A stretch of 64,000 nt of DNA from positions 11,996 through 75,995 of the forward strand of contig CAUYUJ010001479.1 in the NCBI GenBank assembly GCA_963575745.1, in the 5' to 3' direction. The notes beneath the pieces were generated by a model. The model did not search any database and had not been told where the DNA came from. It was given only the letters and a program-made list of their open reading frames with translations. Source of the DNA: Prorocentrum cordatum. Taxonomy: Eukaryota > Sar > Dinophyceae > Prorocentrales > Prorocentraceae. Shown here in pieces: positions 12,422 through 28,390 of this stretch. Position 1 is the stretch's first letter. Each line of letters opens with the position of its first letter. The translations under genes and the position numbers were made by a program.

Positions 12422-12673
12422 GTCGAAAGTGAGCCTGGTAACTCAAATAGGGCATATAGCCTGGCAAATTGCATCCATCGCTCTGCTGTGAAGGTACAGT
12501 ATGAGGGGTGGATGGGTAAGATAGGATAAGATCGATGTAATGATCTTTCCAGCACATAGCGAACACTCGCGGTGTCCGGGCAAATAGGGCGCGCGTGCCT
12601 TGAGCCCAAGGCAGCGGCGCGCGAGCTATGCTCCCGATACTGTAACATCTCCCAAAGAGCTACCCTTAAAGTC
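12422..12673 (-). repeat. 3' LTR
   Basis: 252 bp, identical to the 5' LTR except at 12552 (G here, A at 28264). In the sense strand it begins GACTTTAAGG and ends CACTTTCGAC; it lacks the canonical TG...CA termini. Confidence 0.88.
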
Positions 12674-12692
12674 GGGAGGGGAGGAGACGGAG
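12674..12692. promoter_or_regulatory. Polypurine on the wrong strand next to the 3' LTR
   Basis: Where a sense-strand polypurine tract should precede the 3' LTR, the plus strand reads GGGAGGGGAGGAGACGGAG, so the coding strand is polypyrimidine. The tract is conspicuous and correctly placed, but opposite in strand to the standard plus-strand primer. Confidence 0.5.
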
Positions 12693-13042
12693 AGCATAGT
12701 CGCACGCAAAGATCGCGCGCACGACTGTTTGCAAAGAAAAGAAAACAGTGCGTACAGTCTGGTCAAACACCAGACTGTAAGGCGAGTTTCCTCGCAAAGT
12801 ATTTCACGCAAATACAGGACAGCCCCTTCAAACAATGAAGGGCTATCGGCTCAGTTAGAGGTAAGCCAAAATTAGGCCATACCTCACCAAGCAAATGTGT
12901 ATTAAGGCAAAGAGCCTGAGTTGTACGAAGCCGGCTCGTTGCCAGGCGTGAAATATAAGGCTCGTTTCCGAGCAGCTAAAGGGGCGCCTTTATAGTAGGC
13001 GCCCGTGCTGGCAAACTGGACCGCGAGGGCAACAAGGACAGA

Positions 13043-16000
13043 CTAAAATTGATTAGACTTAGGTTTGTCTCTGTCCTCGGGACCCCGAAAAGGAACAAAT
13101 TGCTTCACGTCATACTTAAATGACTGAGTGCCTGACATCACTTCCAGAAGCAGCTCCCGATCGATGCTTCCCTTTGTATGCCCATCTGCGGTCATATCCC
13201 TAGTATCACACCATTGCACATTATGTACTATACCTATATCCATGAGCTCACGTATCCAGCTGATATGTCCAAGCAGAGTCCGTTCTGTAGGTATTTTGAG
13301 ATCCCTGCTTGATAAAGATTTGTAGACGGACTCAGCGTCTATGGTAAGAGAGACTTTGATAGCAAGGCCTCCAACTTCACGCATGTCTCGTAGTTGTCGT
13401 GGAGTCAAAGCCCCTGCCTTAAGCTCGTGGAGAGTAATGAGCGTAGGGTAACACTCATCAAGGTTATGTGCGGCTGCAAGTGCCTCCGCAGCATAACTGG
13501 ACCTCACCTGTAATCGGTGTGATTTGCATAGTCCGTCACAGAGGTGAACGACGGACTTGCCTTGAGGCGAGTTTCCTCGCCGTAGTACGTTGGCCCCGCG
13601 TATGCCGTAGCCCTTGGTCTCGTCATCCTCCTCCCCGGTAAGCTTCCGATACCCCGAATCGCTATGGATGTCAACTTCATTCGTCGGCTTCATCCGAGGG
13701 AAGGTGATACGTTTCGGGCTGCTGATCAGCTTTCGCGTCACAGCATTCAAACGTCTGACTTGCAAATTGGTGGGCTCTTGAATTTTCTGAAGAGAGACCA
13801 CATATACCATGAGCCAGATTTGGGTAAGAAGGGCATAGGCGAGGGCTCCTCGCAGGCTGACGAACATGTCGGTCATGAGTTTCGTGGCTTTGGCGTCGGC
13901 CGCCGCTCCTGTAAGTTCTGGGTGTGTGATAGGACGTAGTTGTTTAATGTGCTCGTCCTGGTCCATGATCACATCTCCCTGCTCATTCTTAGTGTAGCGA
14001 ACGGCGCAGTTCGTATATGTGCGCTTGTTGAGCTTGCATTTGCCAAACACCTTTTCGACACGTTGTACATAGTCGTCTATATTTTTCTCTAGACCTGTCA
14101 TGTTAATATCATCGACATGTTTTGCCGTCAGAAGGTCTTGGCTGAATTCAAATTCAGGATCGTAGCTGGTCGGTGTAAGTCCTATAGCTCGTGTGGTCGT
14201 ACGAAGTTTGAGAGAGAACGCTCTTGGAGCGTCCTTAGTACCCGTTCCTGGTTTGAGGCATCTAAGACAGTGTCGACTTTCGTCGTAGGATGAGAAGCCG
14301 GGTAATGTACGAAGTACCTGAGCGCTTCCTGGTGGAAGAGTAAAGCAAACCATGCGAGTTTCCTCGCCGGTGGCATGGGCAAGTTCCTCATAGGTCAAAC
14401 CCTTGAGGAACGCCTTATCGATATCCATGGATGCTAAGATCCACTCTGGATGGCATGCCGCTTCACTTGCCAGGAGTCGTTGGGACTGCCTTCGGGCGGT
14501 TCCCGAGAATGTTTCCACATCAAAAGCCTCAGTATCCATAAATCCACGAAGGACCAGTCTGAGACGAATGGTTTTAACGTTCTCGGTACCCATCTTTACG
14601 AACTTCCACTTGTATACATATCTGGATGTCATGATGTTGGAAGCTTTGGATAAATCGTACATCTCAAAGCATCGATTATCAATCCAGATTTTGAGCTCAG
14701 TATATAAGGCTTCACTAACCTCCTTTGGATGTGCTGCTATGTCGGCTTTGGTTAGTAGATCATCTTCTTTGACAACCACAGCACGTTTAGCAGCAGAGGA
14801 TACATATACTCTCATCGTTGCGACCATATCGGTATCGAGCTGTGCAAGTTGAGTCTGATCCAACACTATTTTAGACATTTCTGATGTAAAGCATAGTTCA
14901 ACGTAAGGACCGTATTCATCACTGTCTAGAGAGTAGCTCTCGTCGGCTGTGTTTGAACAAAGAGAGACTAGACAGGACTCACATGATTTCGGCTCGTCTC
15001 CGAGCATATCTGATGATATAATATCATCTTCGTCCACAAATGCTGAAACCAAAACACACTGGTCGGGCAGCATAGTTGTTGGGACGCAATAGAGATAATC
15101 ATCGGTAATCGTCGTAGGATGAAGGTCCATACGTAGCTCGTCGTACCACTCTTCCAGCATCATAGCTTCAATATTGTGTTCCTCATTTTCCTCATAGATT
15201 GTCGACAGACGGCCTTCGCTCGGCGATGAAGCGTCTGGTGTGTCTGGAGAAGGCCTGTTTCCAGGCGACTCGTGTTCTCCAGACGTGTTGCTTGGATGCT
15301 GATATTTAGCCAAATCGTCGTGAAATCCTAAGGAAGGGACACGTGAAGTCAAGCATTGAATAAGTCTGGAGTGAGTGCTACCAGTGATCTGAGAAATGTT
15401 TAAGCCAGTGCCCACGCATTCGTAATAGTGGAACGCCGGGCTGATGTCGTTGTCATAGTGGATCAGCGTAGACCCGGTGGCGTACTTTACTGCAGGTAGG
15501 CTTGACACACTCTTAGCCAATCGAACTGCTACTACATGTTCTACTCGGAAGTAATTCCGTACGAGATACTGTAGTGCTAAGTGTACGCGCGGGTGAAACT
15601 TGCTGTCGTCTGACAGATTAAGGTTTCCCTTGTAATCGGGGATATACCCGAAAACTTTGGCAGGTTTCCCTGCGCTGAGGTGTGCCACATAAGCAAGGAC
15701 GGTTTGCATGGCCATATTATCCATGCCAAGTTCCCGTGTGAGGAGACATTCGATGTATAGTGTGTGACGAGCATCAGGATACATCACAATTACCTCACGA
15801 GATCCTGCCTTGACAACAATATGTCCTCTTTCAGGCACGTTTCGGATCACCGGGAATGGGCCGTTCCAGCCTCCATGGTCGTCCTTGGTGGCAGTAGGTC
15901 GGTGGTAGTCGACCAAATCCCCTGATGAGTAGAGGCGAGCACCATCAGGAGTCGTCTTAGCCCTAAGAGCCCGATTTGTCTTGGCTACAGCAGTAGCCTG

Positions 16001-16219
16001 AGTTATGGCTTCGAGGCTGACTTCCCTTACACGACGTTCTCGTTCGTGTCCTGAAGTCTCGGGTCCCTTGGGAAAGTCAAGGGTATCGAGATCAGGAAGG
16101 AAGGAGGGCTGACGTCCTGTGTGTGCCTGATATGGCGATACTCCGTTATAAAACGTAAACGCATTAGTAACGAAGATGCCTTCCGCCAATACTCTAGTGA
16201 ATACAACAGGATGTTGTGT
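13043..16219 (-). CDS. Copia integrase C-terminus, reverse transcriptase and RNase H
   Basis: Open from just after a TAG at 16220-16222. It is in the -1 frame relative to the upstream integrase ORF and has no ATG of its own at a sensible place, so it must be entered by frameshift or was separated by an indel. It begins with the copia motif NGVSPYQAHTGRQP. RVT_2-type reverse transcriptase spans about 14690-13990: RYVYKWKFVKMG, MDIDKAFLKGL and the catalytic box KHVDDINMTG near 14118, where HVDD replaces YVDD. RNase H follows (about 13690-13180): D in DIHSDSG, E in YAAEALAA, D in TIDAESVY, and WCDTRDMTADGHTKG. All key acidic residues are present, so the enzymes look intact. Several GNRA hairpins lie inside it, including one within the RT region (14353). 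Confidence 0.9.
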   Translation of the reverse strand, partial: TQHPVVFTRVLAEGIFVTNAFTFYNGVSPYQAHTGRQPSFLPDLDTLDFPKGPETSGHERERRVREVSLEAITQATAVAKTNRALRAKTTPDGARLYSSGDLVDYHRPTATKDDHGGWNGPFPVIRNVPERGHIVVKAGSREVIVMYPDARHTLYIECLLTRELGMDNMAMQTVLAYVAHLSAGKPAKVFGYIPDYKGNLNLSDDSKFHPRVHLALQYLVRNYFRVEHVVAVRLAKSVSSLPAVKYATGSTLIHYDNDISPAFHYYECVGTGLNISQITGSTHSRLIQCLTSRVPSLGFHDDLAKYQHPSNTSGEHESPGNRPSPDTPDASSPSEGRLSTIYEENEEHNIEAMMLEEWYDELRMDLHPTTITDDYLYCVPTTMLPDQCVLVSAFVDEDDIISSDMLGDEPKSCESCLVSLCSNTADESYSLDSDEYGPYVELCFTSEMSKIVLDQTQLAQLDTDMVATMRVYVSSAAKRAVVVKEDDLLTKADIAAHPKEVSEALYTELKIWIDNRCFEMYDLSKASNIMTSRYVYKWKFVKMGTENVKTIRLRLVLRGFMDTEAFDVETFSGTARRQSQRLLASEAACHPEWILASMDIDKAFLKGLTYEELAHATGEETRMVCFTLPPGSAQVLRTLPGFSSYDESRHCLRCLKPGTGTKDAPRAFSLKLRTTTRAIGLTPTSYDPEFEFSQDLLTAKHVDDINMTGLEKNIDDYVQRVEKVFGKCKLNKRTYTNCAVRYTKNEQGDVIMDQDEHIKQLRPITHPELTGAAADAKATKLMTDMFVSLRGALAYALLTQIWLMVYVVSLQKIQEPTNLQVRRLNAVTRKLISSPKRITFPRMKPTNEVDIHSDSGYRKLTGEEDDETKGYGIRGANVLRRGNSPQGKSVVHLCDGLCKSHRLQVRSSYAAEALAAAHNLDECYPTLITLHELKAGALTPRQLRDMREVGGLAIKVSLTIDAESVYKSLSSRDLKIPTERTLLGHISWIRELMDIGIVHNVQWCDTRDMTADGHTKGSIDRELLLEVMSGTQSFKYDVKQFVPFRGPEDRDKPKSNQF

Positions 16220-19200
16220 CTATTCAATTCTTCCTCAATCATGTGGAGGACGCCTCTGAGAATGCCGTTTCGTGACTCAATTGAAGTCGCGTGTTGGCCA
16301 GGAGCACGGATACGAAGTTCCGTGCCCTTATTGGCCATCATGGTTTCAGCGGCATCGTTATTCAGGGCGCCTTCTCCGTCTGAGTATAAAACTTTGAAGG
16401 GTCCGTGATAGGCAATCCAGCAATAGTGGTAGGCGTCGATGATAGTGTCACGTTCTCTGTCGGAAATCTCTAGGCCTGCTGCCAGGCGAATACAACGGTC
16501 CATAATATGAAATATGGTCCGTTTCTTGTAAAACATGAGGTCCATTTCCCCTTCATCGAGCCAGTTACCAGGGAGGCTTACCGATGGTAATGTTGAGTTT
16601 CCTGGACGTTCCCATGCTCTACATTCCCGACAGGTATCGCAGATTTCCTTGATCATGTTCAGTCGAACGTTATCAAGCCCCACCTTTTCGAGGATTAGCC
16701 TCATCTTTGGCTCCTTCGCATGATACCATCGCAGATGCAGTTTTCGGAGTTCCTTTTTCACAACATGGGGTTCGTGACTACGGAGACTCTGTAGACTGTG
16801 TTGGATGTCAAATCTCGTCCAGTCGGGTAGTCGTGGAGCCCCAGAGCCGGTGGAGGCAAGAGGGTTCCTTGTAGCTCTCCGTAGTTGATCCCCTGTGTTG
16901 ACTGCGTCTGGAGGTGGTGGTACGCCTTGTAGACGTCCGCGGCGGGCCGCTACCTGTGGCGTGTCGCTAGAGGACGCAGAAGGCGTGTTTCCACGCTCGG
17001 GGGCGTCTCGTAGTAGGTCGTAGCTGCTAGTGCCAGATGTCGGATCGACGCTACCGAAGGATCGTGGTCGCGGTGGCCTGGCGCGTGCGCCTTGGCGGCC
17101 ACCTGAAGCTGAAGCTTGGCCCTCACCAGGTTTAGGTAAGGGTTTCCACCAAGCTGGCACGGCTTTGCCTTCGGGGTCGTGGTCGTCTGGTAGTTTAAAT
17201 GGTTCAGCAAAACGACATTTACCAGGTTCGGTATCAAGGTGGTTCTTAACACCCTTGCTTCTCGTAAGATCCCTTTGACATGCTGGACATGGCCAATATA
17301 CAGAGATGGAGTCATGATATTTGCACTGCGTAGGGTCTCTGTTATGGCTAGGACTGTCCTTTCGGACGTTGTCGATGCATGCCGGGCACGTAGCCACCTT
17401 TGGGATGATACGATCACCGATGCGTCTCATACCTTCGCCTGGTTCAGCTTGCTCAGGAAGGTCGGCAGGATAAGCATGTGCAGTACTTATAGGCGCGTTT
17501 CCGCGCGTAGTGTCAATGGCTTTCGCCAGATAGACGGCTTCCACGAAGGCAGACTGCAGTCGTCGAGTATATCTTTGTGCTAGTGAAAGCTCGGTGTTGC
17601 ACGGTTGTGCGTGCACATGCTGACCGTTGCACTTGAGTCGCTCAAAGGGTTTAAGAATTGTCTCGTCGTTGCTGGTGATATTTGTCGGCTTCTTAATATA
17701 GTCACCAGTCGTATCCTTAAGTCCCGTAGCGCATTGGTCAATGCGTACGGTTGTAATGTGTGGTCGGTTGGCAAGCTTCGTCCATGGAGAGATATCGTCC
17801 ACCCATGTTCCTGTAGGTTGTTCGCGTATAAACCACCTCTGAGCGTCATCTTGGGTTACAGCAATTTTACCACAGTAAATTATGTGTGGTAAGTCTTCTC
17901 TGTGGTGCTGTTCCCAAGTGTTATAGTTGACTTTGTAGTTATAGTAAGATGGTGGTCCTGTGGTGCGGCAGCTGGGTTGCAGTATGGCAACTCGTACGTA
18001 GCATATCGCAAAGTAATGATCTATAACCTGCTGCACCGAGGGGTCTCCCAGGTCGACATATGTAGTTTTGTCCAAGTTGCCGCCTGAGGAAAGTCCCCTT
18101 GAGAAGGCAAGCTCTGAGATGCCACCCTCACCACCACAAAGCTCCAACATATCCACGCAGTTGTTATGGCCGTAGCATAGTGTAGCAACTATGCTATATA
18201 TGTTAGCGTGTGTGTCGGGCATAGATGTGGGGAGGGTAAGGAACAGGTCATCGTCCTCGTCGGAGCTTATCAGCTCAACAGGGACGTCAGTACTCCAGAT
18301 TGCCATAAGATCCTGTCCGAGTCCTGACAAGTCGTCGCCGCAATCGTCATTTCCGTCTTCAACGTGCTTTTTAATGCGGCGAGGCTTGATGCCTGCTTCC
18401 TTTTCGGCTTTGAGCCTCTCCTTCTGCTTTATACGCGATTCAGTGGGTAAAGCTTGCTCGTCTTGTTCGTCGGTCTGTGTACTCATTGTCGTGGTTGAAT
18501 GGGTACATGCGTCAATCGCCAGAGTCGGGAGGGGGAGAGAACAGTCATCTATGATGACGCGTCGATGTTTCTGTGGTGATTGAGTCGGCTCGTTTCCGAG
18601 CAAGACCGGTTCCTCGGGTTGCCAATACAACCGAGTACTGATGTTGGCAACCCCTGCAGGTAATGGTGCATGCCAATCATACCCTGTTGGTTGATCGGTA
18701 ACTGAGATATCTTGAATAACCGCGTTGGTATCCAAGTTGATTGTTACACGTCGGATGACTTCAGACCATTTTGGTCCTCCCTTATGAGTCGTCACGTAGT
18801 GACGGGTGTTATGGTCTGTACGTGTATACGTATTTAAGTATACGGGCACGTTTCCGTGCGTGGTGGTGCTCCCCAGGATTTTGTCGTTCAAGTGACGGAT
18901 GAGTATAGTACGTGTCTGAGCCCGCCATTCAGCATGTCGTACTGTATGGCCGTACCAATCCAACACATGTTGTGGTATGGCCTGCTTACAGGTACATGTC
19001 CACAGCTTCGAGCTGATCGGTATTGATGATGCTACCTGCATATAGGTACCGCTTGGTGTACTGTCTTGCATATTGAACCGAATACCGAAATGACACAGAC
19101 GCATCCGTATTACTGACAACTTTAGATCTTCCAGGGTATCACGTACTGGAGATAACTTCCAAACATATCCTGGGGGACCAAATATTATAATCTTCATGCG

Positions 19201-19506
19201 GAGTTTCTTGGCTTTAATCAACAGGTTCTGGATACGTGACCAATGTGGGGCCACTCTCTTTCCTGGAGTTCGTACGTACCAGTCACCCGGAGTACTAATC
19301 CATATGAGAGTGTAATCTCCACTGATCACCGCACCTAGGTAGTTTGTGCCCACGCTTGTCATAAGTTCGTTGTGGGAAATACGATCACAAATATAACCTC
19401 GTGTGCGGAGGTCGGCACATGCCTCCCTCGTATCTTCGATGACAAAAGCCCTCTTACTAAGGCAGGTTACCCCGCTGTCCTTGTTACCCCCCGGCTTTTC
19501 AGCCAA
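16027..19506 (-). CDS. Copia polyprotein middle part: methyltransferase-like domain and integrase
   Basis: In the same frame as the first ORF, from which it is separated by one TGA (19546-19548) and 13 sense codons; the listed start is TTG, so it is probably not initiated independently. The N-terminal ~200 residues have an unnamed domain (DYTLIWISTPGDW, IIIFGPPGYVW, RLCHFGIR). A SAM-methyltransferase-like segment follows, about 18150-17560: DMLELCGGEGGISELAF resembles motif I and ILQPSCRTTG sits where motif IV would be, then DQCATG...KKPT. A Cys/His cluster (CPAC...CKYH...CPAC...H...C) lies near 17420-17200. The integrase has the HHCC finger (HLRWYH...CDTCREC, near 16735-16610) and a D-53-D-33-E core (MDLMF, SDGEG, IESRNG). 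The final ~60 codons are out of frame with the conserved protein. Confidence 0.82.
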   Translation of the reverse strand: MAEKPGGNKDSGVTCLSKRAFVIEDTREACADLRTRGYICDRISHNELMTSVGTNYLGAVISGDYTLIWISTPGDWYVRTPGKRVAPHWSRIQNLLIKAKKLRMKIIIFGPPGYVWKLSPVRDTLEDLKLSVIRMRLCHFGIRFNMQDSTPSGTYMQVASSIPISSKLWTCTCKQAIPQHVLDWYGHTVRHAEWRAQTRTILIRHLNDKILGSTTTHGNVPVYLNTYTRTDHNTRHYVTTHKGGPKWSEVIRRVTINLDTNAVIQDISVTDQPTGYDWHAPLPAGVANISTRLYWQPEEPVLLGNEPTQSPQKHRRVIIDDCSLPLPTLAIDACTHSTTTMSTQTDEQDEQALPTESRIKQKERLKAEKEAGIKPRRIKKHVEDGNDDCGDDLSGLGQDLMAIWSTDVPVELISSDEDDDLFLTLPTSMPDTHANIYSIVATLCYGHNNCVDMLELCGGEGGISELAFSRGLSSGGNLDKTTYVDLGDPSVQQVIDHYFAICYVRVAILQPSCRTTGPPSYYNYKVNYNTWEQHHREDLPHIIYCGKIAVTQDDAQRWFIREQPTGTWVDDISPWTKLANRPHITTVRIDQCATGLKDTTGDYIKKPTNITSNDETILKPFERLKCNGQHVHAQPCNTELSLAQRYTRRLQSAFVEAVYLAKAIDTTRGNAPISTAHAYPADLPEQAEPGEGMRRIGDRIIPKVATCPACIDNVRKDSPSHNRDPTQCKYHDSISVYWPCPACQRDLTRSKGVKNHLDTEPGKCRFAEPFKLPDDHDPEGKAVPAWWKPLPKPGEGQASASGGRQGARARPPRPRSFGSVDPTSGTSSYDLLRDAPERGNTPSASSSDTPQVAARRGRLQGVPPPPDAVNTGDQLRRATRNPLASTGSGAPRLPDWTRFDIQHSLQSLRSHEPHVVKKELRKLHLRWYHAKEPKMRLILEKVGLDNVRLNMIKEICDTCRECRAWERPGNSTLPSVSLPGNWLDEGEMDLMFYKKRTIFHIMDRCIRLAAGLEISDRERDTIIDAYHYCWIAYHGPFKVLYSDGEGALNNDAAETMMANKGTELRIRAPGQHATSIESRNGILRGVLHMIEEELNRHNILLYSLEYWRKASSLLMRLRFITEYRHIRHTQDVSPPSFLISIPLTFPRDPRLQDTNENVV

Positions 19507-19545
19507 CAGGCAAGACGACGAGGGGGCGACGTCGCCCTGCCATCT

Positions 19546-19548
19546 TCA
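19546..19548 (-). other. Single in-frame TGA between Gag-protease and Pol
   Basis: The coding strand reads TCT TGA AGA TGG CAG. Codons on both sides are in the same frame and no other stop interrupts 28269-16027. It may be a readthrough site regulating the Gag:Pol ratio, or a lesion. Confidence 0.6.
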
Positions 19549-22500
19549 AGATGAAGAAGATGTGCCTACAATATCTGCCAGCATCTGGGCTTCCCTCAGA
19601 TGCTGGAGCTCAGCACTGCAGCGCGCCGTGGCCTCAGAGGCGGATTGCTCCGCAAATGCTGTCAGCATCGATGGATTATCCATCAGCTGTTTCAGCACGC
19701 CTTTGGACCTAGCGTCGCTGACCGTATGCAATTCACGATTAGTGTATCCCATCACTATTTTACGGCGGGACTGCACAGCGTCCATGGGTACACTACCACC
19801 ATGCAGGGCCAGTGTCCTGGCAACAAAACAATCGAACGTCTCGAGATCGTCGATGTTGTCGCCTCGCATGGTGGCCTTGGCGAGCGTCTCCATCAACCCC
19901 TGGGGCAGGTTTCCCTGCAATTGATTGCGCTCCTGCGCTGGGGTCGGCTCGCCTGTCAGCACTGTCTGGAAGGACGTGCTGCTTGAGCTCGAGGCGGGTT
20001 GCCCCGCAGCTCCAAAACAATCACACCTGATCGACAGATGCCCTGACGGCAACTTTGTCGTCGGCATGATTTTGGAGCCTTCTGGGAGCTCCATTTTGAC
20101 CTGCCCCTTACCAGGGAATATCAGCTTTTCCTGGCCTCGTTCAAGCACGATGATCGTGCGTTTGTCCTGCATACTATCGAGACCTAGGATGGCTGGCAGG
20201 TCCTTGCCACAGCCTGACACAATGTTCGTCTTGTATGAATCGAGTTGGGCCGACCCCTGGTACTCGCAGGCAATACTGAATGTGCCTACGGTATCCGCTG
20301 GGGCCGACCCTTCTCCCACTCCGTTGATATTCAAACGAGAGCGGGGCTCGAACGTACAAGTACGGCCATGTGCCTCGGCAGCCTGGACGAACTTACGGCT
20401 CGTGTTCTCGCCCATGATGTTGATCTTCGAACCGACGTCGATGAGTATGGAATTACCACCATCATCCAAGAACGTCTTACTCGGCTGCTTGATGTGCACA
20501 GTTTCTGAAGTGTCGGCTGTGTCGGTAGGCGGGTTTCCCCGCGGCACAGTCGTGCTCCCTGGCGGGTTACCCCGCATGACACTGGCATGTGACTCGCTCT
20601 CGGCCATGCGTGCCAGGTCAATGTACTGGAAGTACGACACGTGCTGGGCGTGATCGCCACGCTCCTCCCGCCAGTTGGCATACTCATCACGTATGCTCAT
20701 ATACTGCTCGCGGGTCGTGCGCCTTATCAACGTTAGGTACGAGTGAAGGGCGATGTCCTGCAGCCCCTCGTTCGTGATGTGATCCCGGTACCGCAGCCAC
20801 TCCTCGAACTCCTCATTCGTCGCTGAGATGTTGACGGCCCTGGCTGCTGTTGCTGCTGACGCCGCTGAGGATTCTGATAGGTCTAACGACGGACTATCAG
20901 TTTCAGGATTATTGGCATCTAGCATAAATGTTGTGTGCGTATTATCCATCTGATTCTGGAAATGTCGTACACGCAACTCGCGCAGCTGATCAGGGTCCAG
21001 TGACATCTCAGCCTCGCCTCCACTCTGGGGAGACATCTGAGGAGTATCATGCAGGTTTCCCTGCTGAGGCGCCGTCATCGGGATAAGCTGATCAAAATAT
21101 CCCGTTTCCATAGGCGGCCTTACCTCTTCAGGCAGGTATCCCTGCTGTTGTGACGGAACTGTCTGCATAGCTAGCATCCTGGACGTCATCTCCTCCACCA
21201 TGCTCCTCAGCTCCCGCAGCTCTCTCGCTGACTGCTCAGGAGTCTGACTAAAGGAGCCGGTCCATGGGAAGGATGATGCTATAATGCCAGGTGCTCGACA
21301 GATAGCACATGGTGGCTGCTGGGGATCTCCCTCACGCTGATTTGTGACGTGGCCCACCACATTAGAATTCCAGCATCCCTCGTGGAATAGGTGATTGCAC
21401 CTCAGGCGGTAGACGCTATCCCTGGGCTGAAATTCTTCGAGGCATACCGCACAGGTATCTTCCATCCCAGTGAAGACTTCTACGTCTGCTACCCTGGGAT
21501 ATACCCGCCGCTGCCTCTCCAATACCGTCTCGGAGGGCATGAAGGCTGATGGGGGTGTCCCCGTTGGATTCAGCACTTCCTGCACTTCGACATTTGGCAT
21601 GGAAGTGGTAGGAGTCACGGCGGGCGAGTTTCCTCGCAAAGGTGAGCCCCTGTTCCTCACCACATCAAGTGCAGCTGCACGTGACTGATCCCGTACGCTT
21701 TGCACCGCCTGCCTCCTCCTGAAACATGCCTGCTGAGTGTGGTGTGTCTGCCTGATGTAGTCAGGCACGCCCCTACTGCCAGACGATATTGAATGGGCAG
21801 TGGGCTGAACAACCACCTCTGGTGATGTTGGTGAAGGCATAAAGGCCATGTGCGGGTACATGGAATGGTCGCTGCAGCGCACATTAGTGAGGTTATGCAT
21901 CTGATCCGCCAATTCACGAACAAATTTGTTCGGAACCCTTGACCCGTCAGGGTATAATGGCGAATTCATCTGCGTTGGTGGTGGCCTCTGGCCCTGAGAC
22001 ATGCTCGGATGGGCGTTGAACGCCGGGATAAAGGCTCGTTGCCGAGCAGGGTCCCGTGGGTTGGGACCCTCAGGTTCCCAGGACCAGGCTGGCCTCCACC
22101 TCTGCCCACTTGGGTGAGGCAGATTATGGTTCTGCACCTGCTGCACCGCGGCCGCCACTCTTGAGCGATAGTCGTCAGGTACACCCGCCCTGTGGTGGCT
22201 TGGTGTACCAGGCAGGTTTCCCTGCTGACTCGTCGGCGTGCCGGGCGGCATCATGTTGAGGAGGGCTGTGCTGTGATCAGCCCTAGCCGCAGCTATCCTC
22301 TCCATGAGTGCGCCGTTTGCGGCAGGGCGGACAGGTGTCCCGAATGGGGATTGTGCCGGTGGTGTGCCCAATGGAGTCATGCCCCTTGGAGTGTGCACGC
22401 TCTGAGTAGGGCTTCCATGCATTGGTTCAAACCGAGCAGGTCCGCTTGTAGGCAGGTTTCCCTGCATGGCCTGACGACTTCTCGTAGCCATAGCGGACAT

Positions 22501-25500
22501 TGCTCCCTGGCCTGCGGCCCAGGGATCCTGCTGGTATAACCTGTCCGCCAGCTGTTCTACCTGGTCAGGGTTCAGCGCGGCTGCGATCTGATCCAGGTCC
22601 GAGGTACTAATGGCCTGCCAAGACACGGCACTAGGCCCTTGGCTTGGGGCACGGCTTGGAGCCGCGCTCCCGGCCTCACTCTCGGTGATCATGAAGATCC
22701 GAAAGATCTCAGGCTGGTTTCCCAGCTGGGTAGGGCTGTAGTGGTCCCCAACTTCCCTGTGGGGGTAGACCATGGGGGGGTCGACGCCCTCTTGGTCTTG
22801 GGACCACTGGTACTTAACGCTGGAAGTACCAACGTCAGCCCACCTGTCAGGAGCAGACATCGTTGCGACAGAGACTCGCGCATGGCGGCTCCCCAAATAC
22901 TCTGGATTACGCCATTGCCTTCCTGTGGTCAGATCCTCTACATGCGAGATGTAATACGGTTCAATGATACCGTTATCTCCCTCGGACAAGAGGACTCCGT
23001 TATCGGACCAACAGAACTTCATACCATCTTGTATGGCCTGACGCCACTCTACGAAGATGATGATGTCTGAATCTGGGTCCCACCCACTGTTCACGGCACG
23101 GCGGCGAACTGTCGGCACGAAGTGAATGTGCGAACGGCCTGTCCCCCTTTTCTTCGTGTTGTGCTCAGGTCTACAGGACAGGCCGTGCCACATGATACCT
23201 TCGAAAGCATGCCATCGAGTGCCATGCATGGCGACTTCAGGGTATGGGGCCGGTCTCCCGGCAGGTTGGTCGCACAGTACAATGTAGCTGTACAGCGACC
23301 ATGGAGCTTTCAATGTCCATGAATGCCCCTGAGAGGCGCGGATGAAGATAGCGGGCTCGCCGGAGTCCCGCATTAACACCTTGAACTGGAGGCGTTGTTT
23401 TTCTTCTCCGTCTGGTTCACGAACATGAACAACTGACATCATGATGGCTGCGAGTTGGTCAACCGAGCGACCATATAACTGCTCGTTGATGAGTTTGGCC
23501 TCGTTATATCTTGGGTTATACCCAGCATGACTCGATTGACCTGTGTTCCACGGATACTCCCTCACGAGCTCCACGAGGTTAACCCAACCATCATGATCAT
23601 CGAAAGATTCCAAGCGCCACACAGGATTGTGTTGCTTGTCTGGCGCATGTCTGCATATCTTGCTGAGAGCTTTGCTCAGCTGTTTGAGAATATCGTTGGA
23701 TGTGGGAAGGATTCCAGCTTTCCTGCATTCCTTCATGAATGTCTCATCCACCGAACGTATCGGTGGGAGCTTTCGAAGTGCAAGTCTATCCCTGATCACA
23801 TTTGGAGTCCCACTGGTGAAGGACGTGTCGCCTGGGTGGTGCAGCTGAACCACTGGCGGGTTTCCCCGCATCGGAGCCTCCGTTGCTGAGGAGGCTGCGG
23901 CTCCAGAAGAGGAGGAAGCTGCTGCGGCAGCGCCTGGCGGGTTTCCCCGCGGAGATGCACGACTGGCGCTGCCCCTGATCTTCGGCACCCAGTTACCCCT
24001 CGACATAGCTCCTTCATCGGACCTCCTGGAACGAGCCGCCACAGGCGAAGCTGGCGCAGGTGCATACCCACTGCGCTCGAAAGCTGCCGCCCTTTTCGCA
24101 ATGGACTTGCTGCGACTAAGCGGGCGTCTTCGTTCCTCCATAGGGTCCTGAGGTTGCTGCTTGGGCACAGACGCTTGTGGAGGAGTTGCGCCAATCGGCG
24201 GCCTCGGCGTCGCAGATCGAGGCACCTCCATATGCACGTCTGGCCCGGGGCTCTGAGAGATCGCCTTCGGTTTCGGCTCCGAAGACGGCTTAGGTGTCGG
24301 GGGTTCACTCTTAGCCTTCGAAGTTAGTGGGAGTGGGGGTTTCCTAGCCCCCTTCATGTAGATCGTGCTGGAATCCTCCAACATCTTGCGAGTTGCCTCG
24401 CGCGTGCGTTCTTCTACTGTCCGAATACGCTCCTCATCCCCCGCCACACGTTCAGCCTTTGTCTCGTCCTTGATGATCGGCTCTGGTTGTTGGGACTGGC
24501 TAGAGACGCCAGGCGAGTTTCCTCGCATACTAGGAAGACTAAAGAGCGCGTCTTTCTCTTCCTGGGTCATGGCTACCAGCCCCCTTGGAACCGGGTTAGG
24601 CTTCTCTTCTTCTTTCGGATCCAAGTGGCTCAAGATCCCGAGACGACGATTCACTTCCGCGATCTCGTCCTGCGTCATCGGGATAAGTGGCGGATGGCCC
24701 TCTTTAGGAGGGGTTTTGCCCCTGTTGGGGCTCAGGCCTTCGTTGTTGCCAACGGGGCATCCTGGCCTGTGATTCTGGAACGGCTGGGAACAAGGTCCGC
24801 ATGCTGCGTGAGGCCTATACTGCTTGCGCGCCGCGATAATATCTCGTAACTGAGTCCGCACTTCTTGAATTTCAGGGCGGCGGATGTTTGTTGCAAGCTG
24901 ATAGCCTCCGCGGATGGGCTTGCCATCGCTGTCCCTATAGGCAGGGTTGCCCTGGCCGAAGGCCGAGTGTTCCCCTTTTCGGCGTCTTGGGTCGTTGTAC
25001 GGAAGTAGCTGGCCACCTCTCCTGAGAGCGTGTTCTTTTGGGCCAGCCTGTCTCCACTCACGAGGAAGTCGAGCCTGGGGATGTGGCTCTTCTCTGACGC
25101 GCGTATGGGAACGAGATCTTCTGGTGTTCTCATCAGAGGAAGCTGCCGATGCAGCAGGAGCGGCACCCGGTGGAGGTGCCTGAGAGGGCTCCTGTGCGAT
25201 CCCAGATGGATCATCCGATGGAGGCGGGTCTCCCTGCTGTGTAGAGCTCGGCGCAAGTGGCGCTTGTGCCGATGGTGATGATGATTCAGACTCATCAGGG
25301 TCGAAATCAACCTCTTCCTCACCATTCACGTCCATCATGAGGATGGTGACATCATCCTCATCTAACCCGCAGCCATCGCCATCTACTTCTTCTGATGTCG
25401 AACTACCAATGATGATGGCCATTGGCGTATCTGGTACAGGCAGGTTTCCCTGCATAGCCGGCGTCTGGGCGTCGCTCGGCTGTCCCGGAGTAGGAGGCAC

Positions 25501-28269
25501 TGTTGTCGGCTCAGGCTCGTCGCCGAGCATAGGCTGCCCAGCAATGTTACGCATGGCCGTATGGTTTGGCCTCATTCCCACCGCCTGGAGGCCCCATCCT
25601 GGCGGAGGAAGATCATGACCGCGCATAGCCATTGCCATTTCCAGAGCACGACGCCATCTACCACGGGAGTATATCAAGTGTCTCTGCACTTCCTGAGGAT
25701 ACACGCTGTCAACGAGAGTCAGAGCTGCCAAAATCAGCTCTGAACTACCGCAAGCATAATTATCCTGTTCTGTCATGATGTCAGCTTCGATATGTTCTTG
25801 ACTCTCAGGATAACCAATTGTAAGTATCTCATGCATCCTCATGAGGGTCTGCAAAAGGGTACGTGGTCCATATTCGCCTGGAGCAAGCGAACCAGGAGGT
25901 ATGAACGGAATATCTGGTTCGCCTGCAATGAAGGCCTGAACAAATGCCTGAGACTCCATTTCAATTAAGTCTTCAGTGGTCTGGGGATATTCTCCCATCA
26001 AAGAAGGCCTGTTTCCAGGCGGGATTTCGGGCGGAGGTTCGAGGTTTCGTTGAACCTCGGAAGGCGAAGCCTCTATAGTGGTGTCCTCGTCGTCACTCTC
26101 GTAGGCCATGATGTTGCCTGGGTTCCCGAACATCCAGTCGAAGAATGAAAGAGGCTCGTTTCCAAGCGTACCGTGTTCCACGGGAGTGAGTTCGTTACTG
26201 CCCGTGACGAACCGGCGGACGTACTCGAGGTAGTACGCGTACAATCCATGACCATACCCCTCGAGCTCGTCGATGTTGTCCATGCCAACAACCCAAGTGA
26301 AAAATATCTGTTCCATAGCCTCAAAGTCCTGGAGGCTCAGATATTCAATGGATGGTGCACTTGAGCCAAAATGGACTTCGGACGACATGCCCTTTCCATT
26401 TCCCTTCGCTGGACAATCTCGCACAAGATGGTCGGAACTACCACATTCATGGCATTTGAGAACCTGGCCGTCTCTACCTCGCGGGTTTTCCCGCCTACCT
26501 TTACCTTTACCTGAGGTCTCTCTACGGCCTTTACCACGGCCTTTTCCCCCAAAGAATATCTCATCATGTTGTTCATCTGAGAGCCTCTGGAGAAATGCCG
26601 CGATACCTCGCCCGTTCAACCTCCGACGACCACGCTTGCCTTTACCCTTTCCTTTAAAACTTCTGCGTATCCTCCTTCTAACACGACGCACTGGTTTTCG
26701 TGTGAACCTCCTCCACCTTCGTTTAGCCTGTTGTAACAGCCAGAATAAATGCTCAGCACGCTGATTGTCGTTATCCATATTCATGATATCTGACCAATCT
26801 AGAGCTTCAACACCATCTGATGATATAGTGTCTGTATCGGTGCCGGAGTCGAAATCTTCGTCTCCTAAATAGGTGGATACACCGTCGGTTAGGGGATTTG
26901 ATTCCCCCCATAACGAGCGGTGTGGTTGTGGTTCTCTAGAAGGAGGGCTGGTTGCCCAGCTTGGTTGTGATCGATCCCCTGCTAATAAAGCAGTGGATTC
27001 TCCTGGGTCATCGGCCCATATGTTTGAGGGCCCGTTTCCAGGCTGGGCTTCAGTAGTCAAGGTAGTGTAGAAATTTCCACTACCAGATCCCCTTCCTCTT
27101 CCAAACACGGATCCTATGTTACCAGGAGATCGTTCGGATAGGTGACCTACCGAACGCATCCTTTCCAGCAACTCATCATACTGTTGTTGTGTTCGAAGCA
27201 TTTGGTGATTGAGTGGCTGTAAGAGTTGCATGGCTTTCTGGTTGCCGACGCCTAAGGCGCGGAATAGGATAGTGGTTAGCAGTTGGAAGTTAGGAAGGTC
27301 GAATCCCACCGACTGTGCCTCAAGTCGGGCCATTTCGAATCGGGTAAGAGTGACATCGATTCGTTCCCCGTGAGGCACATGGAAGTCGATGAGTTGTGTG
27401 CCGGAAGTGAGCTGTCGCTCATCTTCCAGGCGTTCGAACTTCATGCTGAGGAGGAACATGATGTAAGTTACTGGGTCTGTGTGGACCCCATCAATGTCAG
27501 CACCATAGTTTATAATGTCAGGCGGTACCCTCATGGCGAGTGTCCTCGCTAGGCCACCTAGGCCGCGTTGTATTGCGGCCGCTTGGGCCTGTGGCGTCAT
27601 ACGTCCGCTTGTAACGTTGAGCCATGCGTTGACCTCGTAGATGTACTCACGAAAAGGTACATTACCTTGAGGGTCCCAATATGGGCCATGTGTTTGCCCA
27701 TCGGTGCTGTTATCTCCACGACGCATGTGTCCGATTGCTGCCCCCAGCGCGAACCATATGATAGCGAAAACGATTAGCCCGAGAATGTGTAACGAAGGAC
27801 GGTTATGATGCGCGTTGTCGCGCTGGGATAGCGCCTTGTCGAGTCTTCGAGGCGCTCTGTCTGGCGGGTCTCCCCGCCCTTGCTTCAAGTATTGCGCTGT
27901 TAGCTCGTTGCCGAGCGGTTGGTAGTAACGCAATGATGAAGCGTATATGGTACCAGTTTGGTCGTCTAGACGTCGTACCTCTCGTGTTGCTTCTTGCTCT
28001 TGAATAGATCCTCGTAAACGTACTGGGAGTGGTGGCGCAGGGTGGTAGGTGGTCACGAAGATCGTGCCGAAGAATATGAGGCTAAGAAGAGCAAGAGCTG
28101 ACCACACGAGAGTGCGGCCAGCTCCGCTACCAAGTCGAAAGTGAGCCTGGTAACTCAAATAGGGCATATAGCCTGGCAAATTGCATCCATCGCTCTGCTG
28201 TGAAGGTACAGTATGAGGGGTGGATGGGTAAGATAGGATAAGATCGATGTAATGATCTTTCCAACACAT
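19546..28269 (-). CDS. Giant Gag-protease polyprotein with Tpt1-like, RING-H2 and membrane segments
   Basis: 2907 aa from ATG 28269, which lies inside the 5' LTR, so the first ~45 residues are LTR-encoded. Two hydrophobic helices (about residues 54-75 and 160-180) precede a Gag-like helical region and a CCHC zinc knuckle, CHECGSSDHLVRDC, residues 606-619. A Pro-rich disordered stretch follows. A Tpt1/KptA domain spans about 1525-1790 (Arg1540-His1541, Arg1644 in RASQGHS, HGT at 1682, Arg1712 in RSHIHF, NGVLLSEG). A RING-H2 finger lies at about 2273-2323. A retropepsin-like protease has LIDVGSKINIMG, Asp about 2611, then AILGLDSM. The polyprotein is rich in Gly-Asn-x-Pro repeats, the translation of the embedded hairpins. 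Typical copia Gag-PR segments are only a few hundred residues. The captured domains look intact, not decayed. Confidence 0.88.
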   Translation of the reverse strand: MCWKDHYIDLILSYPSTPHTVPSQQSDGCNLPGYMPYLSYQAHFRLGSGAGRTLVWSALALLSLIFFGTIFVTTYHPAPPLPVRLRGSIQEQEATREVRRLDDQTGTIYASSLRYYQPLGNELTAQYLKQGRGDPPDRAPRRLDKALSQRDNAHHNRPSLHILGLIVFAIIWFALGAAIGHMRRGDNSTDGQTHGPYWDPQGNVPFREYIYEVNAWLNVTSGRMTPQAQAAAIQRGLGGLARTLAMRVPPDIINYGADIDGVHTDPVTYIMFLLSMKFERLEDERQLTSGTQLIDFHVPHGERIDVTLTRFEMARLEAQSVGFDLPNFQLLTTILFRALGVGNQKAMQLLQPLNHQMLRTQQQYDELLERMRSVGHLSERSPGNIGSVFGRGRGSGSGNFYTTLTTEAQPGNGPSNIWADDPGESTALLAGDRSQPSWATSPPSREPQPHRSLWGESNPLTDGVSTYLGDEDFDSGTDTDTISSDGVEALDWSDIMNMDNDNQRAEHLFWLLQQAKRRWRRFTRKPVRRVRRRIRRSFKGKGKGKRGRRRLNGRGIAAFLQRLSDEQHDEIFFGGKGRGKGRRETSGKGKGRRENPRGRDGQVLKCHECGSSDHLVRDCPAKGNGKGMSSEVHFGSSAPSIEYLSLQDFEAMEQIFFTWVVGMDNIDELEGYGHGLYAYYLEYVRRFVTGSNELTPVEHGTLGNEPLSFFDWMFGNPGNIMAYESDDEDTTIEASPSEVQRNLEPPPEIPPGNRPSLMGEYPQTTEDLIEMESQAFVQAFIAGEPDIPFIPPGSLAPGEYGPRTLLQTLMRMHEILTIGYPESQEHIEADIMTEQDNYACGSSELILAALTLVDSVYPQEVQRHLIYSRGRWRRALEMAMAMRGHDLPPPGWGLQAVGMRPNHTAMRNIAGQPMLGDEPEPTTVPPTPGQPSDAQTPAMQGNLPVPDTPMAIIIGSSTSEEVDGDGCGLDEDDVTILMMDVNGEEEVDFDPDESESSSPSAQAPLAPSSTQQGDPPPSDDPSGIAQEPSQAPPPGAAPAASAASSDENTRRSRSHTRVREEPHPQARLPREWRQAGPKEHALRRGGQLLPYNDPRRRKGEHSAFGQGNPAYRDSDGKPIRGGYQLATNIRRPEIQEVRTQLRDIIAARKQYRPHAACGPCSQPFQNHRPGCPVGNNEGLSPNRGKTPPKEGHPPLIPMTQDEIAEVNRRLGILSHLDPKEEEKPNPVPRGLVAMTQEEKDALFSLPSMRGNSPGVSSQSQQPEPIIKDETKAERVAGDEERIRTVEERTREATRKMLEDSSTIYMKGARKPPLPLTSKAKSEPPTPKPSSEPKPKAISQSPGPDVHMEVPRSATPRPPIGATPPQASVPKQQPQDPMEERRRPLSRSKSIAKRAAAFERSGYAPAPASPVAARSRRSDEGAMSRGNWVPKIRGSASRASPRGNPPGAAAAASSSSGAAASSATEAPMRGNPPVVQLHHPGDTSFTSGTPNVIRDRLALRKLPPIRSVDETFMKECRKAGILPTSNDILKQLSKALSKICRHAPDKQHNPVWRLESFDDHDGWVNLVELVREYPWNTGQSSHAGYNPRYNEAKLINEQLYGRSVDQLAAIMMSVVHVREPDGEEKQRLQFKVLMRDSGEPAIFIRASQGHSWTLKAPWSLYSYIVLCDQPAGRPAPYPEVAMHGTRWHAFEGIMWHGLSCRPEHNTKKRGTGRSHIHFVPTVRRRAVNSGWDPDSDIIIFVEWRQAIQDGMKFCWSDNGVLLSEGDNGIIEPYYISHVEDLTTGRQWRNPEYLGSRHARVSVATMSAPDRWADVGTSSVKYQWSQDQEGVDPPMVYPHREVGDHYSPTQLGNQPEIFRIFMITESEAGSAAPSRAPSQGPSAVSWQAISTSDLDQIAAALNPDQVEQLADRLYQQDPWAAGQGAMSAMATRSRQAMQGNLPTSGPARFEPMHGSPTQSVHTPRGMTPLGTPPAQSPFGTPVRPAANGALMERIAAARADHSTALLNMMPPGTPTSQQGNLPGTPSHHRAGVPDDYRSRVAAAVQQVQNHNLPHPSGQRWRPAWSWEPEGPNPRDPARQRAFIPAFNAHPSMSQGQRPPPTQMNSPLYPDGSRVPNKFVRELADQMHNLTNVRCSDHSMYPHMAFMPSPTSPEVVVQPTAHSISSGSRGVPDYIRQTHHTQQACFRRRQAVQSVRDQSRAAALDVVRNRGSPLRGNSPAVTPTTSMPNVEVQEVLNPTGTPPSAFMPSETVLERQRRVYPRVADVEVFTGMEDTCAVCLEEFQPRDSVYRLRCNHLFHEGCWNSNVVGHVTNQREGDPQQPPCAICRAPGIIASSFPWTGSFSQTPEQSARELRELRSMVEEMTSRMLAMQTVPSQQQGYLPEEVRPPMETGYFDQLIPMTAPQQGNLHDTPQMSPQSGGEAEMSLDPDQLRELRVRHFQNQMDNTHTTFMLDANNPETDSPSLDLSESSAASAATAARAVNISATNEEFEEWLRYRDHITNEGLQDIALHSYLTLIRRTTREQYMSIRDEYANWREERGDHAQHVSYFQYIDLARMAESESHASVMRGNPPGSTTVPRGNPPTDTADTSETVHIKQPSKTFLDDGGNSILIDVGSKINIMGENTSRKFVQAAEAHGRTCTFEPRSRLNINGVGEGSAPADTVGTFSIACEYQGSAQLDSYKTNIVSGCGKDLPAILGLDSMQDKRTIIVLERGQEKLIFPGKGQVKMELPEGSKIMPTTKLPSGHLSIRCDCFGAAGQPASSSSSTSFQTVLTGEPTPAQERNQLQGNLPQGLMETLAKATMRGDNIDDLETFDCFVARTLALHGGSVPMDAVQSRRKIVMGYTNRELHTVSDARSKGVLKQLMDNPSMLTAFAEQSASEATARCSAELQHLREAQMLADIVGTSSSS
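20050..20480 (-). other. Retropepsin-like aspartic protease domain
   Basis: LIDVGSKINIMG is the active-site region (D-V-G-S where D-T/S-G is usual), followed by NINGVGEGS, LPAILGLDSM and PSGHLSI. It would cleave the polyprotein. The Val in place of Thr/Ser is odd but, as I recall it, common in dinoflagellate copia proteins. Confidence 0.7.
21290..21465 (-). other. RING-H2 zinc-finger domain in the polyprotein
   Basis: The ligand order is Cys-x2-Cys (CAVC), then Cys-x-His-x2-His-x2-Cys (CNHLFHEGC), then Cys-x2-Cys (CAIC): the C3H2C3 pattern of RING-H2 ubiquitin ligases. All eight ligands are present. It lies between the Tpt1-like domain and the protease. Confidence 0.8.
22900..23700 (-). other. 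Tpt1/KptA-type RNA 2'-phosphotransferase domain
   Basis: Matches the family signature along its whole length: LSKALSKICRHAP, DGWVNLVELV, IFIRASQGHS, MHGTRWHAFEGIMWHGL, RSHIHFVP, DIIIFVEWRQAIQDGMKF and NGVLLSEG...I.P.Y. The Arg-His-Arg-Arg catalytic tetrad is retained. Known members transfer an internal RNA 2'-phosphate to NAD+, as after tRNA splicing ligation. The first and second catalytic Arg are 104 residues apart, so there is an insertion in the N-terminal lobe. A GNRA hairpin (23248) lies inside the coding sequence between the second Arg and HGT. Confidence 0.85.
26360..26381 (-). other. Dinoflagellate spliced-leader-like sequence inside the Gag ORF
   Basis: On the coding strand, CCGAAGT precedes CCATTTTGGCTCAAG. 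The last 15 nt equal the 3' part of the dinoflagellate spliced leader as I know it, and the first part differs by one substitution and one inserted base. It is translated in frame (SEVHFGSS), just after the zinc knuckle. Confidence 0.6.
28121..28132 (-). promoter_or_regulatory. Primer-binding site for initiator tRNA-Met type primer
   Basis: The sense strand reads TGGTAGCGGAGC one nt after the 5' LTR. It resembles the copia-type sites complementary to the initiator tRNA-Met 3' end (TGGTAGCAGAG type). It fixes the orientation of the element. Confidence 0.72.
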
Positions 28270-28385
28270 AGCGAACACTCGCGGTGTCCGGGCAAATAGG
28301 GCGCGCGTGCCTTGAGCCCAAGGCAGCGGCGCGCGAGCTATGCTCCCGATACTGTAACATCTCCCAAAGAGCTACCCTTAAAGTC
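28134..28385 (-). repeat. 5' LTR, containing the Gag start codon
   Basis: 252 bp, one difference from the 3' LTR. The ATG of the giant ORF is at 28269-28267, so over half of the LTR is translated and the same initial reading frame is present in the 3' LTR. Confidence 0.88.
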
Positions 28386-28390
28386 TCCAA
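28386..28390. repeat. Target-site duplication, right copy (TCCAA)
   Basis: Matches 12417-12421. Confidence 0.75.

Follow-up and report, generated by a model that had tools for sequence, protein, structure and literature searches.

Dispersed RNA hairpins with a common stem in a copia-type retrotransposon of the dinoflagellate Prorocentrum cordatum

Here we analysed a 64,000-nucleotide stretch of the genome of the dinoflagellate Prorocentrum cordatum (contig CAUYUJ010001479.1; the whole stretch is referred to as the window) and found dozens of small hairpins of a single form dispersed through a long terminal repeat (LTR) retrotransposon. The element is of the Ty1/copia type, as defined by its LTRs with a target-site duplication and its copia-type reverse transcriptase (RT), and its sense strand is the minus strand of the window. 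The motif is a 5-bp stem with fixed G-C, C-G and closing G-C pairs, two free but paired positions and a GNRA loop. The hairpins lie exclusively in the sense strand, in both coding and 3' untranslated parts, and their sites are held by selection on structure. Related families of the element use the same stem, and in two families the loop is family-typical, either GNRA or GNCA. We propose that the hairpins serve as dispersed RNA recognition sites in the genomic transcript of the element.

A scan of the window for the form GC-xy-G-[4 nt]-C-y'x'-GC returned 41 perfect 14-nt hairpins in the internal region of the element (Table 1). Thirty-eight are fully Watson–Crick and three contain one G-U pair; 12 xy stem types are represented. 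Loops are GNRA in 35 of the 41, including 24 with GAAA, and the others are GACA (2), GATA, ACAA, AAAA and GCAG. The LTRs contain no copies, the antisense strand of the element has no copies with GNRA loops, and the 16 such stems found on the two strands of the other 48.0 kb of the window all have loops other than GNRA. The initial annotation had described 38 copies with ten xy types, three of them paired through G-U, 34 GNRA loops and none in the remaining 48 kb. The abundance of copies, the predominance of GNRA and the three G-U pairs are borne out, whereas the counts are revised as above, and the absence from the rest of the window holds for GNRA loops. The 15-nt unit that it proposed arises where a C directly follows the 14-nt hairpin on its 3' side (35 of 41). 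This position diverges by 0.125 and 0.15 between the window element and two more distant copies (C15 and C26, below), consistent with a preference for C in the window family. We rejected a 3' CT as part of the motif, as the second position diverges by 0.475 and 0.436 (background, 0.19) and the C at the first is not kept in a related family (F2, below).

Spacing of the hairpins is more even than random (coefficient of variation 0.69 versus 0.97, P = 0.007). Open reading frame (ORF) A contains 28 in 8.8 kb, ORF B 6 in 3.3 kb and ORF C 5 in 3.2 kb. When the frame of ORF A is treated as open to its 5' end, 28 hairpins are in phase 2, 6 in phase 0 and 5 in phase 1, and 2 are in the 3' untranslated region (UTR). 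Most are read as xGNxP (phase 2) and, among the matches listed, one peptide of this form (27666, QGNVP) has no hairpin. Copies previously assigned to other frames, GEETR (14367–14354), GKPA (15673–15660) and AGRPA (23262–23249), were placed correctly, as were those in the 3' UTR and in catalytic domains (for example, the RT copy at 14354–14367). Both perfect 3' UTR hairpins (within 12782–12973) are followed by CTTA.

The form is sharply bounded. The internal region contains 34 five-bp Watson–Crick stems with GNRA loops, and 32 of these have the GC..G form; the two outer pairs and the closing pair are thus specified, and the two middle pairs alone are free. There is no surplus of copies that deviate twice from the pattern (the 15.7-kb sense strand of the element has 8; the two strands of the 48-kb remainder have 52 and 50), so a tail of decaying copies is lacking. 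No Rfam family matched the window at gathering score, which is weak evidence, as a 14-nt hairpin could hardly score.

Chance and codon usage were ruled out as the source of the hairpins by synonymous, codon-order and dinucleotide shuffles. Of the 41 hairpins, 39 lie in the three ORFs, 33 of them with GNRA loops; 200 synonymous-codon shuffles gave a mean of 3.65 (maximum 8) and, for GNRA loops, 1.7 (maximum 6), and dinucleotide shuffles gave a mean of 0.73 (maximum 4). The initial annotation had named similar numbers in codon-preserving shuffles, or an equal frequency outside such elements, as grounds for abandoning its reading. Neither was found; the second comparison covers the other 48 kb of the window and one stem sequence in a 3.56-Mb contig. 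When copies were selected blind to pairing (GC-NN-G-GNRA-C-NN-GC), 35 of 37 paired, compared with a mean of 8.5 and a maximum of 17 when the 3' arms were permuted (20,000 trials); the two mismatched copies are at 25237 and 12947.

We compared the hairpins with three copies of the element in the same genome: C2, which differs at 3.5% of aligned sites, and C15 and C26, which differ at about 19%. A stem paired according to the pattern is kept at 37, 35 and 37 of 40 compared hairpins in C2, C15 and C26, respectively. Differences per stem site are 0.028 (C15) and 0.023 (C26), against backgrounds of 0.193 and 0.192, and the 20 nt on each side of the hairpins differ at 0.21–0.24 per site. At third codon positions the stems differ at 3 of 130 sites in C15 and 2 of 130 in C26 (1.5–2.3%), whereas the background differs at 1,770 of 4,686 and 1,797 of 4,696 (38%; Fisher P = 4.5e-22 for C15). 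Third positions in loops differ at 3 and 4 of 40. Three pairs changed on both sides between the window element and C15/C26 (26167, 24526 and 21145), with pairing preserved in all three. Loops changed at 11 (C15) and 10 (C26) of 40 sites, and changed GNRA loops are still GNRA in 6 of 8 and 7 of 7 cases. Frozen synonymous stem sites together with paired changes indicate selection on RNA structure, with single copies partly decayed, and we conclude that the hairpins are almost certainly kept as RNA structure. This agrees with the original suggestion that RNA structure, not peptide or primary sequence, is retained, as does the use of another phase and loop in family F2.

Family F2 comprises two elements, F2a (loci L018, L014 and L007) and F2b (L017 and L008), the pol proteins of which are 49–66% identical to those of the window element. 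Both use the same stem with predominantly different loops: 28 GNCA, 6 GNRA, 2 GNTA and 3 other in F2b, and 25 GNCA, 4 GNRA, 2 GNTA and 4 other in F2a, compared with 2 GNCA, 35 GNRA, 1 GNTA and 3 other in the window element (GNCA/GNRA, F2b versus window element, Fisher P = 1e-11). Antisense strands of F2a and F2b have no GNNA loops on stems with a G-C closing pair. The first ORF piece of F2b contains 24 GNCA hairpins, against a maximum of 3 in synonymous shuffles, the type of shuffle applied to F2b. Most F2b hairpins are in phase 0 and read AGxPA (26 of 34; 24 of 26 in L017 and 2 of 8 in L008). In L017 the frame is open for 3,131 codons. Two further families, F3 (L019 and L009) and F4 (L010), have frames broken into shorter pieces and contain 9 GNRA and 3 GNCA hairpins in 14 kb and 6 GNRA and 6 GNCA in 10 kb, respectively, with none antisense. 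Among the listed GNNA hairpins of F3 and F4 loci (L009, L010, L019, L020 and L021), 15 of 35 have the stem GCGGG..CCTGC, as expected from decay of CpG to TpG in the 3' arm, which leaves a G-U pair.

Orthologous sites in pol were compared by codon alignment; most sites on the Gag side align poorly between families. At site 15673 the window family, F2 and F3 all have a hairpin, with stems that differ but pair. Site 13580 is likewise shared by all three; its loop is GCCA in F2 but GAAA in F3 and the window family. A third shared site could be 15005, although all four free bases and the loop have changed and the alignment is loose. Hairpins at 14367, 16996 and 18601 of the window element have no counterpart in F2, and that at L007 1660 of F2 has none in the window element, in each case in an ungapped aligned stretch; 14367 and L007 1660 are the best aligned. 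At none of the 10 window pol sites aligned with F2 was the hairpin replaced by a 5-residue gap. Hairpins can thus arise and vanish in place by substitution.

The sequence GCNNGGAAACNNGC, counted irrespective of pairing, is found 38,124 times in the 4.13-Gb genome, compared with 7,419 for the reversed control; if each element contributes about 24 GAAA hairpins, the total would correspond to on the order of a thousand elements. The counts for GCGGGNNNNCCCGC are 63,186 per strand genome-wide versus 40,489. Of 46 listed sites in the 3.56-Mb contig C1, a single F2a element accounts for 26, and 25 of those have sense-strand GNNA loops; the 20 listed sites outside it include one GNVA and one GNTA loop, counting either strand. 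At least 75 copies of the window-element RT are at least 98% identical to it (75 scored of 13,508 first-look candidates), and the family is probably large and young. Several RT copies are in open frames of more than 2,100 codons.

Several explanations other than recognition by an element protein were weighed. The hairpins may form an RNA architecture: docking of the GNRA (or GNCA) loops into helical receptors, either within one transcript or between two, would compact or dimerize the genomic RNA with no need for a protein. GNRA loops are classic docking loops, the isolated hairpin is stable (three forms from the window have energies of −7.2 to −7.8 kcal/mol) and the even spacing suits such a role. 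However, a search of the element with the 11-nt pattern, the one receptor examined, gave a single distant-arm match, which is too few for about 40 loops; docking does not need the fixed bottom two pairs; and we know of no report of GNCA as a docking loop. We consider this explanation unlikely. Somewhat less unlikely, although still improbable, is a function for host or element other than packaging, such as translation control, RNA localization or stability, escape from silencing, or a cycle of RNA end repair with the Tpt1/KptA domain that the window element encodes, that is also present in F2 and that is detectable in F3 and F4. Enzymes of this class remove 2'-phosphates left by RNA ligation. 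Yet the marked preference for a single peptide phase points to hairpins that are translated, not excised, the sites are spread along the whole internal RNA and are not at its ends, and the sole tie between Tpt1 and the hairpins is their presence in the same elements.

The remaining alternatives concern how the hairpins could arise without selection on RNA. A selfish 15-nt palindrome that inserted in frame many times and was tolerated, as the initial annotation had considered, fits the length including the 3' C, the phase bias and the lower density in ORFs B and C. Against this, four pol sites (14367, 16996, 18601 and L007 1660) are present or absent without a gap, which makes insertion unlikely and largely refutes the idea for pol; moreover, 12 paired stem types occur with few decayed copies (2 of 37 blind copies mismatched), and sites common to the copies are frozen across 19% divergence. 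We regard it as very improbable. Template switching during reverse transcription could make and repair hairpins mechanically; in DNA replication it is reported to yield perfect stems and compensatory changes (PMC8794818, as excerpted), and it may be the origin of the paired changes. As a full explanation it appears highly improbable, because it leaves unexplained the fixed G-C/C-G/G-C positions (32 of 34 five-bp GNRA stems), the GNRA loop, the sense-only orientation and the frozen synonymous sites. Equally hard to credit is selection for a repeated peptide (xGNxP or AGxPA) with the hairpin as a by-product: 28 of 41 window hairpins share one phase, and in the first ORF piece of F2b all 24 AGxPA peptides are hairpins, but hairpins are lost in synonymous shuffles of both the window element and F2b, all three phases and the 3' UTR contain copies, and the same stem encodes mostly different peptides in the window family and F2. 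The peptide was accordingly rejected as the selected feature.

We therefore return to recognition by protein. A protein encoded by the element may read the stem ends and the loop. Gag is the most likely candidate, with its Arg-rich stretch and CCHC knuckle as the parts that would make contact; these are kept between families. This part of Gag is 50–53% identical between the window element and two F2 copies over aligned stretches, and its Arg-rich part is 51% identical to that of F4, whereas the Tpt1 domain is only about 26–28% identical. In phage lambda, the 15-nt boxB hairpin, which has a GNRA-like fold, is read by the Arg-rich helix of the N peptide; boxB differs in having a pentaloop, few copies and a role in antitermination. 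Many weak sites per RNA would allow Gag to assemble on, and package, the full-length RNA of its own element. In the packaging-signal model for RNA viruses the sites are dispersed, and Gag-like proteins have been suggested to work likewise (PMC6281560, consulted in part). On balance, we favour dispersed, family-specific binding sites for Gag in packaging or assembly as the most likely function. The third loop base would then act as a family mark that lets an element package its own kind amid many competing copies. More tentatively, the hairpins could constitute a family identity code, in which dozens of copies of a private tetraloop (GNRA or GNCA) on a common stem in each copia family RNA are read at the third loop base by the family's own Gag, so that related elements in one nucleus avoid co-packaging, with sites gained and lost in place by substitution and the code switched at an orthologous site; we think this possible but doubtful.

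Several observations weigh against these proposals. Pair changes on one side are left unpaired in 4 of 5 cases in C15, 3 of 3 in C26 and 2 of 4 in C2, giving broken copies, and changed GNRA loops in C2 are still GNRA in only 1 of 3. When folding is predicted in native context, the hairpins have a mean pair probability of 0.77, compared with 0.87 at random placement, and reach at least 0.5 in 33 of 41 cases versus 37 of 41. Their lower density in ORFs B and C than in A means that tolerance fits as well as function. All 26 blind copies in the first ORF piece of F2b have the same xy type (GG) and thus show no covariation, and F2 does not keep the 3' C of the window family. F3 and F4 have fewer copies and both loop classes, which leaves just two families with a clear loop code. 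The Arg-rich stretch is common to both loop families, and no residue that would read the loop difference was found. A reader other than Gag, of the element or of the host, would fit the sequence data equally well.

The element itself is summarized in Table 1. Gag and the protease (DVGSK) of ORF A were assigned by eye, as was the integrase; integrase-like residues in ORF B would place a putative integrase upstream of the RT, with no Pfam integrase match. The sequence TGGTAGCGGAGC at 28121–28132 presumably resembles the end of the initiator tRNA. The window copy is split by a stop between ORFs A and B (19546) and a frame change between B and C (16027–16219), despite identical LTRs; open frames flanking the RT are longer in other genome copies. 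Imperfect repeats of about 63 nt at 28432–28765 lie outside the element, immediately upstream of the 5' LTR. The Tpt1/KptA domain matches two solved Tpt1 sequences (best E = 2e-11), to which it aligns without a gap at its hairpin and with a gap just upstream; an AlphaFold prediction made without an alignment had a predicted local distance difference test score (pLDDT) of 34.8 and was discarded. The domain is also present in the F2 polyprotein (L017 ORF residues 1670–1901, Pfam E = 2e-15), in which the RING finger is kept as well (residues 2462–2515). The RT region had no match among solved structures. Relatives outside this genome were not found in viral_contigs, genome_contigs or phages, where the contig patterns reach close relatives only.

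Table 1 Features of the element and individual hairpins. Positions are those of the window. Hairpins were identified by pattern scan of the window and compared with genome copies C2, C15 and C26.
Feature	Position	Strand	Evidence or comparison
LTR retrotransposon, Ty1/copia-type, 15.96 kb	12418–28385	−	Sense = minus strand
Terminal repeats, 256 nt each	28130–28385 (5' LTR); 12418–12673	−	Direct repeats 100% identical
Apparent 5-nt target duplication TGGAG	28385–28389; 12416–12420	−	Flanking sequence
Primer-binding-site-like TGGTAGCGGAGC, adjoining 5' LTR	28121–28132	−	Sequence reading
ORF A: Gag, Arg-rich region, CCHC, Tpt1/KptA domain, RING, protease-like region	19546–28371	−	
ORF B: integrase region, same frame as ORF A beyond a stop	16027–19545	−	Integrase by eye
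ORF C: integrase end, RT, RNase H	13043–16219	−	Integrase end and RNase H by eye
RVT_2 in ORF C	14045–14674	−	Pfam E = 7.6e-9, 35.9 bits, cut-off 31.6
Arg-rich stretch KRRWRRFTRKPVRRVRRRIRRSFK and following, candidate hairpin reader	26605–26724	−	
CCHC zinc knuckle	26410–26457	−	zf-CCHC E = 0.0021, under curated cut-off; CX2CX4HX4C by eye
Tpt1/KptA RNA 2'-phosphotransferase domain	22978–23685	−	Pfam E = 8.4e-23
RING finger	21295–21459	−	zf-RING_11 over its cut-off
GCTCG-GCAA-CGAGC	27903–27916	−	Kept in C2, C15, C26
GCGGG-GAGA-CCCGC	27864–27877	−	Kept in 3/3 copies
GCGCG-ACAA-CGCGC	27810–27823	−	Loop GCAA in C15/C26; broken in C2
GCGAG-GACA-CTCGC, Gag, may be incidental	27536–27549	−	Kept in C2, C26; loop +1 base in C15
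GCCTG-GAAA-CGGGC (G-U pair)	27030–27043	−	Not predicted to form in context; kept in 3/3 copies
GCTGG-GCAA-CCAGC	26947–26960	−	Scan, copy comparison
GCGGG-AAAA-CCCGC	26481–26494	−	Loop GAAA in C2, C26; GAAG in C15
GCTTG-GAAA-CGAGC (G-U)	26154–26167	−	C-G in C2; GCTGG..CCAGC in C15/C26 (both sides changed)
GCCTG-GAAA-CAGGC	26007–26020	−	Scan, copy comparison
GCTCG-GCGA-CGAGC	25515–25528	−	Loop GTAA in C15/C26; broken in C2
GCAGG-GAAA-CCTGC	25440–25453	−	Scan, copy comparison
Mismatched copy GCAGG-GAGA-CCCGC	25224–25237	−	Full pairing in C2, C15, C26
GCGAG-GAAA-CTCGC	24513–24526	−	GCGGG..CCCGC in C15/C26 (both sides changed)
GCGAG-GCAA-CTCGC	24388–24401	−	Broken in C26
GCGGG-GAAA-CCCGC	23937–23950	−	Scan, copy comparison
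GCGGG-GAAA-CCCGC	23856–23869	−	Scan, copy comparison
GCCGG-GAGA-CCGGC, within Tpt1 domain	23249–23262	−	Scan, copy comparison
GCTGG-GAAA-CCAGC	22713–22726	−	Broken in C15
GCAGG-GAAA-CCTGC	22452–22465	−	Broken in C26; loop GAAT in C2
GCAGG-GAAA-CCTGC	22212–22225	−	Scan, copy comparison
GCTCG-GCAA-CGAGC	22034–22047	−	Scan, copy comparison
GCGAG-GAAA-CTCGC	21624–21637	−	Scan, copy comparison
GCAGG-GATA-CCTGC	21132–21145	−	GCGGG-GAAA-CCCGC in C15/C26 (both sides changed)
GCAGG-GAAA-CCTGC	21051–21064	−	Deleted in C2; broken in C15
GCGGG-GTAA-CCCGC	20562–20575	−	Scan, copy comparison
GCGGG-GAAA-CCCGC	20529–20542	−	Scan, copy comparison
GCGGG-GCAA-CCCGC	19994–20007	−	Scan; on piece boundary, outside copy comparison
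GCAGG-GAAA-CCTGC	19905–19918	−	Scan, copy comparison
GCCAG-GACA-CTGGC, may be incidental	19808–19821	−	Broken in C26
GCGGG-GTAA-CCTGC (G-U pair)	19462–19475	−	Not predicted to form in context
GCACG-GAAA-CGTGC	18846–18859	−	Absent in F2
GCTCG-GAAA-CGAGC	18588–18601	−	Absent in F2, ungapped
GCGCG-GAAA-CGCGC	17493–17506	−	Absent in F2
GCGTG-GAAA-CACGC	16983–16996	−	Absent in F2, ungapped
GCCTG-GCAG-CAGGC, integrase region, probably incidental	16474–16487	−	Scan, copy and F2 comparison
GCAGG-GAAA-CCTGC	15660–15673	−	F2 GCGGG-GAAA-CCCGC; F3 GCGGG-GAGA-CCTGC
GCCTG-GAAA-CAGGC	15253–15266	−	Broken in C15
GCTCG-GAGA-CGAGC	14992–15005	−	Aligned F2 GCAAG-GCCA-CTTGC, variable stretch
GCGAG-GAAA-CTCGC, RT domain	14354–14367	−	Kept in 3/3 copies; absent in F2 and F3, ungapped
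GCGAG-GAAA-CTCGC, RNase H region	13567–13580	−	Same codons: F2 GCGTG-GCCA-CACGC; F3 GCGTG-GAAA-CACGC
GCTCG-GAAA-CGAGC, 3' UTR	12960–12973	−	Kept in 3/3 copies
Mismatched copy GCCTG-GCAA-CGAGC, 3' UTR	12934–12947	−	Mismatched in C2; paired (with G-U) in C15, C26
GCGAG-GAAA-CTCGC, 3' UTR	12782–12795	−	Disrupted in C15

Among known systems, MS2, picornaviruses and the hepatitis B pregenome also have many short dispersed stem-loops that share a recognition feature and are proposed to drive assembly (PMC6281560). The window element resembles these in its many evenly spaced sites with a shared motif (41, of which 35 are GNRA) and in their conservation as RNA structure. It differs from the viral signals, as far as the consulted part of that source describes them, in being an LTR retrotransposon, in the uniform stem ends, loop and length of its candidate sites, in synonymous conservation and in a loop class that differs between two families. 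Ty1, also copia-type, likewise has cis-acting RNA structures for packaging and dimerization; these are at the 5' terminus in the account available to us (PMC5454406), whereas the window element has about 40 hairpins through its coding RNA. Nematomorph mitochondria similarly carry inverted repeats inside protein-coding genes, for which a fixed short motif is not mentioned in the accessible portion of the report (PMC6649704). Dinoflagellate retrotransposons that carry a DNMT gene have an extra enzyme too (PMC5890265); that of the window element is Tpt1/KptA, and the words 'hairpin' and 'phosphotransferase' are absent from the main text of that paper. Judged by titles and abstract openings, the open-licence PMC literature contained no description of such a hairpin system.

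In viruses, the sites proposed as dispersed packaging signals are degenerate, which has made such signals hard to prove. The hairpins described here provide a natural case in which the sites are sharply defined, numerous and synonymously conserved, and in which one loop base differs between two families. With such sharply defined sites, how Gag chooses its own RNA could be tested directly in assays of short RNAs against a purified domain. They also impose RNA structure at about 40 places of a polyprotein gene, and provide a marker by which this element family, abundant in the genome, can be recognized. If the identity code holds, it would be a self-recognition barcode system inside retrotransposons.
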